From: a virus
DNA length: 28,807 bases
Virus record (IMG/VR): IMGVR_UViG_3300042924_000585
Location: 1-28,807 of that record
Reading direction: 5' to 3' (one strand)
The notes under the pieces are model-generated. The model searched no databases and was not told the origin of the DNA. It saw only the letters and a list, made by a program, of their open reading frames with translations. Below are positions 3,031 through 10,257 of this stretch, one piece after another (the first letter of the stretch is position 1; each line of letters opens with the position of its first letter). The translations under genes and the position numbers were made by a program.

Positions 3031-3405
3031 TTATTTATTTGGATTGTAAGCCCAGTTCTTAAGAGATATATCCCTTTTAGATGGGCAAGTTTTTGATACT
3101 GGTTCCCCTTGTTCCATGTTCTTCATACGGCTAACAAAACTAATCGTTCTATTAGCTGACTTAACCTCGTTTGCACCCCACTCGCTTTTCTTCTTGCTAA
3201 GTAGGTTTAAGTTTCTTGTTATTGGGCTTCTATCTAATGAAGCTAACTTAGAGCAATCTGTTTCGCTCCAAGCCTTTAACTCCGAATAAGACATATTTAC
3301 TATGTCGTGATACTTTGTATAAACTTCGTCTATTATCTCGCTTAGGTCGGCTTTTAACTCAACCTTTAGATCAAATAAAATATCAATTAACTCTTGACTA
3401 TTCAT
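3031..3405 (-). CDS. Head-region protein with a conserved LDRSPI...SKRDISLKNWAYNP domain (124 aa)
   Basis: The N-terminal 40 residues are acidic and helical. Residues about 38-124 form a small domain with MSYSELKAWSET, ASLDRSPITRNLNLLSKKK, ANRTISFVSRMKN and SKRDISLKNWAYNP. I recognise this block as one that recurs in phage and large-virus proteins (I believe DUF6321-like), but its function is not known to me. It overlaps the portal gene by 8 bp (3398-3405), indicating translational coupling, and is one base from the next gene. A structural or head-vertex role is inferred from position only. Confidence 0.8.
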   Translation of the reverse strand: MNSQELIDILFDLKVELKADLSEIIDEVYTKYHDIVNMSYSELKAWSETDCSKLASLDRSPITRNLNLLSKKKSEWGANEVKSANRTISFVSRMKNMEQGEPVSKTCPSKRDISLKNWAYNPNK

Positions 3406-4777
3406 TTGGTAAGTTTAATGGTTGGAAGTCGTCAACTGGTTGCAAAGAACTTGGGATGTAAAGTTTCTCCATTTCTTCTTCTGGAATATAGTCTGGAATT
3501 TCTAATCCCATGATATCCATCTTTTGCTTAGGAGCAATCCACCAAGCCTTGTCTAACCATTCTACTTGTTCGCTCTTGTTAGCTTCTAATTCTCCGTAAA
3601 CAGATGCGTCAAAATCAACATAAATATTGGAACCTCTGTAACCCCAATCGCTATGCAACTTTCTATTGATGTTATCACGCATTCCAATAAGTAAAGGCAA
3701 AGCACAACGTAAAGTCAAAGCCTTTTCGCCTTCTCTTTGATTATTGTAAGTCTTATTTTCGCTATCGTTTAATAATTGTGCCGGTACTCCGTAAATATTG
3801 CAAAGTGCTTTCATATCCCACTTCTCACTTTCAATAATGTCAAGTTCTACCGGACTTAATCCTATTTGTTTCCAATCTACTTTATAACCACTAACCGCAA
3901 TTGAATTAAAGTTAGCCGCTCCGCCTTTCTCACTAACCGCTCTTTTAAGTGCTTGTGCTTGTTGGCTTCCACTAATTGGATCAAAGCGTTCATCGTTCAT
4001 AAAAAGAACTCCAGCTGGACCGCCATTCTGGAAAGATGCAACCGCAGCAGTCTTGGCTTCGTTCGAACGAGTCAAGTTTCTCGCAGCAGCCATCAAAGGA
4101 GATTGTCCATATAATTGATTGCCAGTAGTATTCCATTGTGGGTTAAAGTATTTGTCTTGTAATATTTCTTGTTTCGTAAAGTTCCATAATGGTCCGTAAT
4201 TCAACTGATAACCTGCAATTGTTGGAGGGAACTCTAATGTGTTTGCTAAGATGTACATATATTGAGATGGAAGCACAAACAACTCGTAAGGTTTGCCGTT
4301 ATTGTTCCCACCTTCAATCATTTTAGCATATACGAAAGAGTTACCAGTAATTAACTTGAAACCTGCCCAAGCCTCAACCAAATCACCCCAAGTATCTTCT
4401 TCGTTAGGATATTTTAGTAACTCGTTAAGTCTTGCATCGCCAGTATATAATTCAAATGCTTTCTTGTGTAAATTATTTACTTCTTTCCAGTTTTCAATCT
4501 TATCTGGTTGGCTGATTAAAGCCTTATATTTCTTTGCTGAAACTTCATCAACTACTTTGTAAACATGCCAAGGGGCAATCTTTGTTTTATCAGTAATTAG
4601 CTTAACAATTGAATAAACTATATCGTTTGCTTGATAGCCTTCGTTTACGAAACTAATATTGTCGCCACCTTGCCAAGTTACGATGCCTTGTTGTATTGCT
4701 ACTTGTCCGTTGAAAGGTATGTTTGGCAAAATAGTGTTTAGCTTCTGTTTTTTCTTCAAGAAGTCAAATAATCCCAT
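3398..4777 (-). CDS. Portal protein (HK97 gp3-like)
   Basis: This 459-aa protein forms the dodecameric portal ring through which DNA is packaged. It has the family layout: N-terminal KKKQKLN, a KLITDKTKIAPWHVYK segment, WAGFKLITGNSFVYAKM, NYGPLWNFTKQEILQDKYFNP, and the stem/wing block YGQSPLMAAARNLTRSNEAKTA followed by FQNGGPAGVLFM. Further on, VPAQLLNDSENKTYNNQREGE and the C-terminal LRCALPLLIGMRDNINRKL are typical of the siphovirus phage_portal family. It follows the large terminase after a 35-bp gap holding a TAACTTTG box, and overlaps the next gene by 8 bp. Confidence 0.92.
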   Translation of the reverse strand: MGLFDFLKKKQKLNTILPNIPFNGQVAIQQGIVTWQGGDNISFVNEGYQANDIVYSIVKLITDKTKIAPWHVYKVVDEVSAKKYKALISQPDKIENWKEVNNLHKKAFELYTGDARLNELLKYPNEEDTWGDLVEAWAGFKLITGNSFVYAKMIEGGNNNGKPYELFVLPSQYMYILANTLEFPPTIAGYQLNYGPLWNFTKQEILQDKYFNPQWNTTGNQLYGQSPLMAAARNLTRSNEAKTAAVASFQNGGPAGVLFMNDERFDPISGSQQAQALKRAVSEKGGAANFNSIAVSGYKVDWKQIGLSPVELDIIESEKWDMKALCNIYGVPAQLLNDSENKTYNNQREGEKALTLRCALPLLIGMRDNINRKLHSDWGYRGSNIYVDFDASVYGELEANKSEQVEWLDKAWWIAPKQKMDIMGLEIPDYIPEEEMEKLYIPSSLQPVDDFQPLNLPNE

Positions 4778-6497: not shown

Positions 6498-6932
6498 TTA
6501 CAAAGATACACCACAATTTGGGCAAATAGTTCCACTTTTAGTATTATCAATCTTTTTAGGTTCGTCAATTGTAGGTACAAGAAAGTCAACATCTACTCCC
6601 CAATCGTTTAAATCTTCCAATTGCCAATCTTCGTTAGCTAACATTTCCATATCCCAATCTCCATAATGGGTATTATCTATTACGAGTAATTTTTGTTTTT
6701 CTCTTGGGGTAAGATTTGGCATAACAATAACTGGCACATCTTGAATACCTAATTCTAAACAAGCACGATACCTTTGATTGCCTCCTAAGATTATATTGTT
6801 TTCATCAAGTATTAAAGGTTTGGCTTCTAATAGCTTTAGATCATCTTGAATAGATTTTACCAATTTAGCAAACTCATTCTTGCCAATTGTTCTTGGATTA
6901 TTTGGATTAGGTCTAATTTGATTTATGTCCAT
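6498..6932 (-). CDS. ParB/Srx-like domain protein
   Basis: This 144-aa protein starts with the ParB-type fold: INQIRPNPNNPRTI, FAKLVKSIQDD, KPLILDENNIILGGNQRYRACLELG and VPVIVMPNLTPREKQKLL. The GGNQRYRA motif is the ParB box equivalent that binds nucleotide in this superfamily. After residue 95 the chain is acidic (NTHYGDWDMEMLANEDW) and it ends in a single CPNC pair. Such stand-alone ParB-like proteins are common beside phage terminases and methyltransferases; proposed roles include nicking nuclease or DNA-binding regulator, and the sequence alone does not decide. Its start overlaps the upstream zinc-ribbon gene by one base. Confidence 0.87.
   Translation of the reverse strand: MDINQIRPNPNNPRTIGKNEFAKLVKSIQDDLKLLEAKPLILDENNIILGGNQRYRACLELGIQDVPVIVMPNLTPREKQKLLVIDNTHYGDWDMEMLANEDWQLEDLNDWGVDVDFLVPTIDEPKKIDNTKSGTICPNCGVSL
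6501..6508 (-). promoter_or_regulatory. TATCTTTG, -7-like box before the small terminase gene
   Basis: Minus-strand TATCTTTG fits TAnnTTTG and lies 28 bp before the start at 6473, overlapping the last codons of the ParB-like gene. No clear -33 TTTG is at the right distance. It may start the packaging/head block. Confidence 0.35.
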
Positions 6933-7126: not shown

Positions 7127-7242
7127 CGCCCTTGTCTATTATATGGTTTTACTGGTTTGTCTTTTGGACCAGATGTTTTTTTGTATTTTCCGCATTTGCG
7201 TTTCCCAAAGCTGACTTTGTTTGAGTTATTTGCCTTCGCCAT
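7123..7242 (-). CDS. 39-aa highly basic small protein
   Basis: The minus strand from the ATG at 7242 to the TGA at 7123 encodes 39 residues, starting MAKANNSNKVSFGKRKCGKY and rich in Lys and Arg, with PKDKPVKPYNRQGR at the end. It overlaps the NinG-like gene by 17 bp and the zinc-ribbon gene by an ATGA, and fills what would otherwise be a 99-bp gap in a gap-free operon, which is the main support for it being real. The composition suggests nucleic-acid binding, possibly a ribosomal-protein mimic in shape, but no function can be assigned. Confidence 0.7.
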   Translation of the reverse strand: MAKANNSNKVSFGKRKCGKYKKTSGPKDKPVKPYNRQGR

Positions 7243-7594
7243 ATTTTTCTATTAATTCGTTTAATTCAGTTCTTGACCATTTGTAAACCTTAACTCTTGT
7301 TGCTATTGTTTCTAATCCTTTAACCGCAGGTTCACCTAACTTGTTTACTAAGCCTATTCTATACATAGCTTGGTTCCCATGTTTATACATATTGCACCCA
7401 GCACATTGTAGGTTTATATTCCATTCATTAAACCTTAAAGCAGAATATCCTTTAACTGGAAAATAATGCCCAGCTTGATTTGCGTTTTGACTTCCGCAAG
7501 AAATACAAGGCAATCCTTCGTCTCTTTTGCGAACGTATGCGTTAATCACCTTTTGTGTTTTTTCTAATAGCTTGGGTAATGGAGTTAATGCCAT
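7226..7594 (-). CDS. NinG/Rap-like HNH recombination nuclease
   Basis: This 122-aa protein resembles lambda NinG (Rap), a structure-selective nuclease for recombination intermediates. The key pieces are INAYVRKRDEGLPCISCG (first Cys pair), QAGHYFPVKGYSALRF (His of the HNH-like core), NEWNINLQCAGCNMYKHGN (second Cys pair, then Asn and His) and YRIGLVNKLGEPAVKGLE. The two CxxC pairs flanking GHY match the zinc-binding HNH arrangement in the family. The length is somewhat below full NinG because the variable N-terminus is short. A TAACTTTG box lies just upstream of the start. Confidence 0.87.
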   Translation of the reverse strand: MALTPLPKLLEKTQKVINAYVRKRDEGLPCISCGSQNANQAGHYFPVKGYSALRFNEWNINLQCAGCNMYKHGNQAMYRIGLVNKLGEPAVKGLETIATRVKVYKWSRTELNELIEKYGEGK

Positions 7595-9285: not shown

Positions 9286-10257
9286 CTACTTATTAACCAT
9301 TAATTCAAATTCTTCTATCGCTTTAAAAATTTGATGTGCAACTTGTGGAACTATTGCGTTTCCGTATGCTTTGATTGATTCATTTCGCCATTTAGAAAAG
9401 GTAATAGAGTCCAATTCTCTGGGAATCCCATCATCTCCTCCACAAATTGGGGATTTAGTTGGGAACCTGCTGAAATCCCTTCTCTCAAAAGATGACCTGC
9501 TAAATTCTTCCGATTTATTTGACTCGGCGGAATTGTACTGTTTGTATATTCTTGAAGTGTTGGAGTTGGCAATAATCCCAAACTCGCTTTCCCACTTAAC
9601 ATACTCGCCGTTCCATCCTTTCTCTTTTGTCCTTTCCAATCCCCTGCTATCGGAGTTGGAAGCATATTTATTACTTGTGTTGCTAAATTCGGCATTGTCG
9701 TTCCGTTGGTATATTTCTCCATTCTCGCTTTGAACTTGTCCAAATCTTGAACTTCTTCTCTTGTCGTTGGAGTAAGCAATAAACCAGATTCGGTATCGTT
9801 GGTGCGGTGCGTTGACACCTGCAGCTGGAATAAGAAACGATTGTACTTCATATCCTTCCCTTTCCAAGTCATTGTACACCTCGTTGAATACCAACCCTCC
9901 ATTCCAATTAACAAGTCCACGAACATTCTCGCCAATAATCCATCTGGGTTTGACCTCTTTAATGCATCTAAGCATATGTGGAAAGAGATGTCTTTCATCG
10001 GCTTTCCCAAGTCGTTTTCCTGCTGTTGAGTATGGTTGGCAAGGGAAACCTCCTGTAAGGATGTCAACTGATCCGTTGTGAATAGAGAAGTCTGTTTTAG
10101 TAATGTCATTGTAAGAAATTGAATTAGGAAAATGATGTTTTAAAACCCTTTGTCCAAAAGGATTCCATTCGCAATGGAAAAGGTTATCCCAACCCATCCA
10201 TTCAGCGGCAAGGTCAAATCCACCTATACCGCTAAAAAGGGATGCGTGTACTAACAT
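9286..10257 (-). CDS. dcm: DNA (cytosine-5) methyltransferase with unusual variable region
   Basis: This 323-aa m5C methyltransferase transfers methyl from AdoMet to cytosine. It has motif I SLFSGIGGFDLAAEWMGW (residues 6-23), motif IV with the catalytic Cys in GGFPCQPYS (C73), motif VI GENVRG (about 109-114), motif VIII QRYRIWF (153-159), and motif X GNAIVPQ (299-305). The target-recognition region (about 163-270) is unusual: poor in hydrophobics, rich in Asn/Ser, with repeated AYSND, ASNSDS and ANSNTS. A 252-codon frame in +1 covers codons 50 to about 302. The start overlaps the upstream HTH gene by 7 bp. It likely modifies phage DNA against host restriction or regulates it. No cognate restriction gene is present. 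Confidence 0.93.
   Translation of the reverse strand: MLVHASLFSGIGGFDLAAEWMGWDNLFHCEWNPFGQRVLKHHFPNSISYNDITKTDFSIHNGSVDILTGGFPCQPYSTAGKRLGKADERHLFPHMLRCIKEVKPRWIIGENVRGLVNWNGGLVFNEVYNDLEREGYEVQSFLIPAAGVNAPHQRYRIWFIAYSNDKRRSSRFGQVQSENGEIYQRNDNAEFSNTSNKYASNSDSRGLERTKEKGWNGEYVKWESEFGIIANSNTSRIYKQYNSAESNKSEEFSRSSFERRDFSRFPTKSPICGGDDGIPRELDSITFSKWRNESIKAYGNAIVPQVAHQIFKAIEEFELMVNK
9351..10109 (-). CDS. Nested overprinted reading frame inside the methyltransferase gene, LPTPT-repeat protein (252 aa)
   Basis: In the +1 frame relative to the methyltransferase, from the ATG at 10109 to the TAG at 9351, lies an uninterrupted 252-codon frame with protein-like composition. Features: SLFTTDQLTSLQEVSLANHT, GMEGWYSTRCTMTWKGKD, three repeats LLLTPTTRE, MLPTPIAGDWKG and LLPTPTLQE, and a C-terminal SQLNPQFVEEMMGFPENW block with LLPFLNGEMNQSK. 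The repeats coincide codon for codon with the A.SNS repeats of the methyltransferase. In the variable region this frame looks more like a folded protein than the methyltransferase frame does. I recall similar (L/W)PTPTA..D.K and NP.FVE.MMGFP proteins beside phage methyltransferases, unverified. No clear Shine-Dalgarno, as for its neighbours. Confidence 0.6.
   Translation of the reverse strand: MTLLKQTSLFTTDQLTSLQEVSLANHTQQQENDLGKPMKDISFHICLDALKRSNPDGLLARMFVDLLIGMEGWYSTRCTMTWKGKDMKYNRFLFQLQVSTHRTNDTESGLLLTPTTREEVQDLDKFKARMEKYTNGTTMPNLATQVINMLPTPIAGDWKGQKRKDGTASMLSGKASLGLLPTPTLQEYTNSTIPPSQINRKNLAGHLLREGISAGSQLNPQFVEEMMGFPENWTLLPFLNGEMNQSKHTETQ

Follow-up and report, generated by a model that had tools for sequence, protein, structure and literature searches.

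A nested +1-frame gene within a phage cytosine methyltransferase gene and its predicted part in a two-polypeptide enzyme

Does a long reading frame lying in the +1 frame of a phage DNA methyltransferase gene encode a second protein, and what would such a protein do? The question is raised by IMG/VR record IMGVR_UViG_3300042924_000585, a 28.8-kb tailed-phage fragment with a GC content of 0.35 and genes for terminase, portal, head-tail, and tail proteins, all 28,807 nucleotides of which are here called the window. Its methyltransferase gene (alpha) encloses a 252-codon frame (beta), the sole ATG open reading frame (ORF) of at least 70 codons in the window that is nested in another ORF of at least 150 codons. 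The ORF listing agrees with the original prediction, in which this frame was described as starting with ATG on the same strand as the methyltransferase, covering its motifs IV, VI, and VIII and ending within motif X. The two frames and their parts are located as follows.

9286..10257, minus strand: alpha, C5-cytosine DNA methyltransferase, 323 aa, putative catalytic subunit (motifs I-VIII and X)
10216..10239, minus strand: alpha motif I (LFSGIGGF), outside the overlap; invariant columns of alignment A2
10107..10109, minus strand: ATG start codon of beta, within alpha codons Asn50-Asp51 (aATGac)
10027..10053, minus strand: alpha motif IV (GGFPCQPYS, with the catalytic Cys), inside the overlap; invariant in A2
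9781..9804, minus strand: alpha motif VIII (HQRYRIWF), inside the overlap; H152, R154, and R156 invariant in A2
9463..9747, minus strand: alpha linker, residues 171-265, the site of the target-recognition domain (TRD) in other C5 methyltransferases; NN/SN 1.00, low pLDDT
9343..9363, minus strand: alpha motif X (GNAIVPQ), inside which beta ends; G299, N300, A301, and P304 invariant
9351..10109, minus strand: beta, nested +1-frame protein with an ATG start, 252 aa, phrog_1008 family
9810..9896, minus strand: beta block GWYSTRC..W....RFLFQLQVS, residues 72-100, predicted beta-hairpin
9462..9779, minus strand: beta middle, residues about 111-216, a variable, exchanged module with recurring LPTP motifs; module swaps, NN/NS 0.57
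9411..9461, minus strand: beta motif IX-like block QLNPQFVEEMMGFPENW, residues 217-233; profile site, strongest beta constraint

Alpha has the motifs of a C5-cytosine DNA methyltransferase, i.e., I, IV (PCQ), VI (ENV, likewise spanned by the beta frame), VIII, and X, and matches PF00145 (E 4e-48) and phrog_363 (4.7e-73). Beta is offset by 148 nt from the alpha start, which corresponds to the +1 frame, and matches phrog_1008, a family labelled "DNA methyltransferase" (E 3.2e-24), as do all of its aligned relatives (99/99); Pfam, NCBIfam, and PADLOC held no matching model. In the block at residues 72-100, W73 and S75 are invariant and C78, W82, R91, and L96 nearly so, and a low-confidence model places strands at 78-87 and 91-100. 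Elsewhere on the minus strand of the window, positions 6498-6932 near the terminase gene encode a ParB-like domain protein of 144 aa with a further match to the N-terminal part of the phage DNA methyltransferase family phrog_498, and positions 7226-7594 encode a NinG/Rap-type DNA junction endonuclease (phrog_171, E 8e-41).

Openness of the +1 frame and selection in both frames

The chance of so long a run had been put at about 1e-8, a figure that ignored the coding frame: when synonymous codons were permuted with the alpha protein fixed, the nested region was open in none of 2000 permutations (about P < 0.0005), and it contains 0 stops compared with 5.8 expected. Far stronger than this result for the window gene alone is the comparative evidence. 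Across 129 distinct genes, the +1 frame contains 0 stops versus 7.2 expected per gene, and the +2 frame of the same genes, with 21 stops on average, is open in none. The homologous +1 frame is open, at the same +1 offset, in 166/166 phage and viral loci, composed of 80 viral loci chosen with beta, 80 viral loci chosen with alpha only, and six additional loci from records of cultured or uncultured phages. The count of +1-frame stops in related methyltransferase genes, which had been suggested together with the original prediction, thus came out at zero. In bacterial-genome loci chosen with beta (n = 80), beta is open in all and alpha is interrupted in some; 5-23 stops interrupt the +1 frame of ordinary C5 methyltransferases from these bacterial genomes. 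The beta-type frame was seen in phages of Paenibacillus, Bacteroides, Escherichia, Salmonella, Klebsiella, Rhodobacter, Xanthomonas, Lacticaseibacillus, and others, and is rare in Bacteroidota genomes (1/198, that one being the centre genome itself).

Some interrupted alpha frames have features of their own. At five loci from Bacteroides genomes (L227, L239, L240, L243, and L244), alpha is broken by TGA, near 3226-4576, and beta is open; where comparable, the TGA codons occupy Trp positions (AAE*MGW, FSR*RQ). Signs of TGA recoding to Trp were not found at these loci, which contain no tRNA gene and whose adjacent genes do not appear recoded; candidate accounts are a decay of alpha with beta kept or TGA readthrough. 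At locus L194, a run of N in the gene around 3600 is followed by a repeated stretch that shifts the alpha frame, which is probably an assembly scar rather than biology.

Within the overlap, the first position of an alpha codon is the third of a beta codon and the third of alpha is the second of beta, which allows either frame to be examined while the other is controlled for. Selection ratios were obtained with transitions and transversions stratified for 40 disjoint pairs, and in an unstratified run for 53 pairs. The stratified beta ratio (NN/NS, intervals in parentheses) is 0.50 (0.40-0.63) over the whole overlap, compared with 2.88 before and 0.83 after it; by region, it is 0.62 (0.29-1.23) at 50-110, 0.36 (0.17-0.60) at 111-165, 0.57 (0.46-0.71) at 171-265, and 0.18 (0.04-0.46), the strongest beta constraint, at 266-285. 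The alpha ratio (NN/SN) is 0.18 before the overlap, 0.21 at 50-110, 0.36 at 111-165, 1.00 (0.81-1.23) at 171-265, 0.17 at 286-302, and 0.29 after the overlap; at 266-285, where beta is clearly constrained, the alpha estimate is low with a wide interval. In alpha, motifs I-VIII and X are under constraint and the intervening residues 171-265 are not. Selection passes from one frame to the other: where alpha is unselected, beta is under selection, and over about 111-165 it acts on both. The constraint test proposed for both frames accordingly found the +1 frame constrained with alpha codons controlled. Given a homologous open frame in all related genes, purifying selection, and a conserved start, the predicted second maintained protein is borne out, and the comparison of sequences confirms beta as a genuine overlapping gene inside alpha.

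Motif IX, the small domain, and the beta middle

In ordinary C5 methyltransferases of the same bacterial genomes, motif IX (R.LTPRE..RLQGFPD) is mostly found in frame. In genes that carry beta, the alpha frame has no motif IX pattern, and its profile score is low. In beta, the best site of the motif IX profile is the LNPxFV..MGFP block (QLNPQFVEEMMGFPENW in the window) in 96/99 proteins, located 20.7 codons before motif X as compared with 18 in most ordinary enzymes. Its score is modest, i.e., 2.8 bits versus 40-57 for ordinary members; it was reached by 1/11,296 control positions and by shuffled beta in 61/3000 cases (P about 0.02). This block (LNPQFVEEMMGFPENW) is where beta constraint is strongest, and it is missing from alpha. 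The match is real in position and conservation and weak in score; since a whole-profile comparison of beta with 13 ordinary C5 methyltransferases (HHalign) returned nothing, the call is based on motif profile, position, and conservation.

The AF2 model of alpha is confident for the catalytic domain and the motif X helix, residues 169-275 mostly having pLDDT values below 50, and it aligns with M.HhaI (2i9k) at Z 20.6 over 198 of 327 residues. Alpha is thus modelled as an M.HhaI fold without the small DNA-reading domain and departs from the ordinary monomeric type, motif IX and a small TRD domain not being present in the same chain. Beta alone gave a poor model (pLDDT 55, pTM 0.23), which would suit a subunit folding on its partner and proves nothing. 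A profile search found no significant PDB relative of beta, and a fold search yielded a single VIA match, cyanase, with a meaningless Z of 2.0; given this poor model and no PDB relative, beta is put forward as a candidate for the small domain.

The beta middle ranges from 32 to 208 residues across the relatives. Between loci L124 and L165, the catalytic part is 99% identical and the beta middle (77 and 79 aa) 25%, and other locus pairs behave alike: DNA identity starts at about 0.98, falls to 0.2-0.6, and recovers to about 0.95, with sharp borders. Such swapping is the behaviour of target-recognition modules, e.g., those of DNA methyltransferases and HsdS. Because the alpha middle is unselected as protein and the exchanged, selected module lies in beta, target recognition is probably located in beta, and residues about 111-216 are proposed as the region concerned.

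The reading that we prefer, with a probability of about 0.86, is a two-polypeptide C5 methyltransferase of the M.EcoHK31I kind, predicted from sequences and models, to which beta would bring motif IX and probably target recognition. Alpha (frame 0) would provide the large domain for AdoMet binding and catalysis, including motifs I-VIII and X, and carry just a disordered linker at the place of the small domain. Beta, which would be translated from its own ATG in the +1 frame, would supply the motif IX-like part and the putative target-recognition region, and both chains would assemble into one active enzyme, like the two polypeptides of M.EcoHK31I. Methylation of the phage's own DNA would thereby protect it from host restriction, and a swap of the beta middle would change the recognised sequence with the catalytic part untouched. 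No restriction-modification endonuclease was recognised among the 20 predicted window proteins scanned, which makes self-protection against host restriction the likely role. A role as methyltransferase partner or specificity factor, as had been suggested for beta, fits an alpha without motif IX and small domain and a beta with a motif IX-like block. We also consider it likely, with somewhat less assurance than the two-polypeptide enzyme as such, that the +1 frame has taken over the whole small domain (target recognition and motif IX); the alpha stretch would then be a spacer without selected sequence, and phages would change specificity by exchanging a DNA module that is open in two frames and selected in one.

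The alternative that survives best is that beta contributes motif IX and helps in folding, dimerisation, or regulation, with the TRD remaining in alpha, where it has been predicted for M.EcoHK31I (PMC3404938). The poor model of beta and the absence of a PDB relative are compatible with this; however, alpha residues 171-265 are unconstrained in amino acids and predicted to be disordered, and it is in the beta frame that the exchanged module is under constraint, which makes a helper of this type unlikely.

Relation to known methyltransferases

The beta polypeptide of M.EcoHK31I is likewise said to be read from an alternate frame within alpha, the arrangement found in the window and its relatives, and it reportedly comprises about 176 aa (252 aa in the window). 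Two-polypeptide C5 methyltransferases are known from M.AquI (CYCGRG) and M.EcoHK31I (YGGCCR), the latter with only motif IX on the small polypeptide and a TRD predicted in alpha (PMC3404938). M.EcoHK31I and the window gene share an alpha with motifs I-VIII and X and without IX, and the location of motif IX on the smaller polypeptide, in the window as a motif IX-like block of modest score. They differ in that M.EcoHK31I belongs to a bacterial restriction-modification system, whereas the window represents a phage without a recognised nearby endonuclease gene, and in that target recognition would reside in beta of the window, in contrast to the alpha prediction for M.EcoHK31I (PMC3404938). Given the variable modules, the window enzyme likely has a target site other than YGGCCR. 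The window gene would most simply be a phage member of the M.EcoHK31I kind. M.AquI is comparable as a C5 methyltransferase that is split in two and holds all motifs together (PMC3404938), but its small subunit has half of the variable region plus IX and X, whereas the window has X in alpha and a nested gene for the small subunit. A plasmid search for an EcoHK31I-like restriction-modification locus gave matches mostly annotated as DNA cytosine methyltransferase; the four E. coli matches that were opened all lie in prophage-like regions, with no restriction-modification endonuclease.

Homologous +1-frame proteins over a C5 methyltransferase are the "Mte8-like" ORF28 of K1ind2, Tadhana_55, and Lily gp63 ("g62 internal gene"). 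The phrog_1008 proteins and annotated nested phage genes are about 25-30% identical to the window beta and labelled "DNA methyltransferase", and a literature search found no account of a division of labour in the phrog_1008-type phage family. The two-polypeptide kind is already known; its spread among phages and the evidence for target recognition in beta look new. The annotation of these loci varies. Both frames are annotated in K1ind2 and Tadhana and alpha only in the opened E. coli prophage-like loci; in phage Lily (L291, 1201-1692) the nested gene was named "g62 internal gene" by the depositors, and in Cylindrospermopsis phage Cr-LKS3 (L285, 1006-1743) the CDS annotated "methyltransferase" is the beta frame, the 281-codon would-be alpha frame having been left unannotated.

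Genes out of frame within phage methylases are documented, and ShiLan resembles the window in having a second protein hidden in this way; it differs in being a mobile HNH insertion with insertion-free relatives, neither of which applies to beta (PMC11855218). Beta might thus be an unrelated protein parked in the methyltransferase gene, i.e., an anti-host factor or hidden homing endonuclease, and its openness in the five Bacteroides loci with TGA-bearing alpha would agree with that. We regard this as very improbable since beta always complements what alpha is missing, no HNH or other Pfam domain occurs in 99 beta proteins, and no beta-free allele exists among the 80 alpha-selected loci, so that beta is not an insertion; the last two results led us to reject an HNH or homing element of the ShiLan type, and the originally suggested unrelated anti-host protein found no support.

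The start of beta and the meaning of the overlap

Among relatives with an alpha Asn, His, or Tyr before Asp, 75/77 use the T-ending codon that creates the ATG, a count inflated by shared descent, compared with a T:C ratio of about 56:44 at comparable sites in the genes. Shine-Dalgarno sequences precede the nested start in phages of hosts that use them (Tadhana, GGGAGG; K1ind2, GGAG; Bas72, GGAG). None is present before the nested start of the window gene, which is usual for Bacteroidota-type phages; to judge from the nearest relatives, the host of the window phage is probably of the Bacteroidota type.

Ribosomal frameshifting from alpha into the +1 frame, yielding one fused enzyme, would agree with a beta frame that is collinear with the missing small domain. 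In most loci, however, the open stretch of the +1 frame begins only about 10 codons ahead of the conserved start and thus upstream of motif IV, so that the fusion would be without motifs IV-VIII, and the Shine-Dalgarno sites at the nested starts of several phages also argue against a fusion, which we rank slightly below even the parked protein. A shadow ORF, open by chance and with a conservation that merely mirrors the methyltransferase DNA, was rejected as next to impossible: some similarity over motifs IV-VIII must indeed stem from alpha conservation, and the stratified beta constraint at 50-110 is not significant, but 129 genes have no stops where about 7 are expected in each, ordinary methyltransferases do have +1-frame stops, and beta is constrained at 171-265, where alpha is not.

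The beta gene, read here as encoding one half of a two-polypeptide methyltransferase, exemplifies a large conserved overlapping gene that is missed or mislabelled by standard annotation. Phage methyltransferases that are cloned as alpha without an intact nested start could test falsely negative. The locus is a natural test case for how two frames can encode one enzyme while selection shifts between them, and it would offer phages a route to diversify their self-methylation against host restriction. Since the family includes the laboratory E. coli phages Bas71 and Bas72, the split is directly testable.
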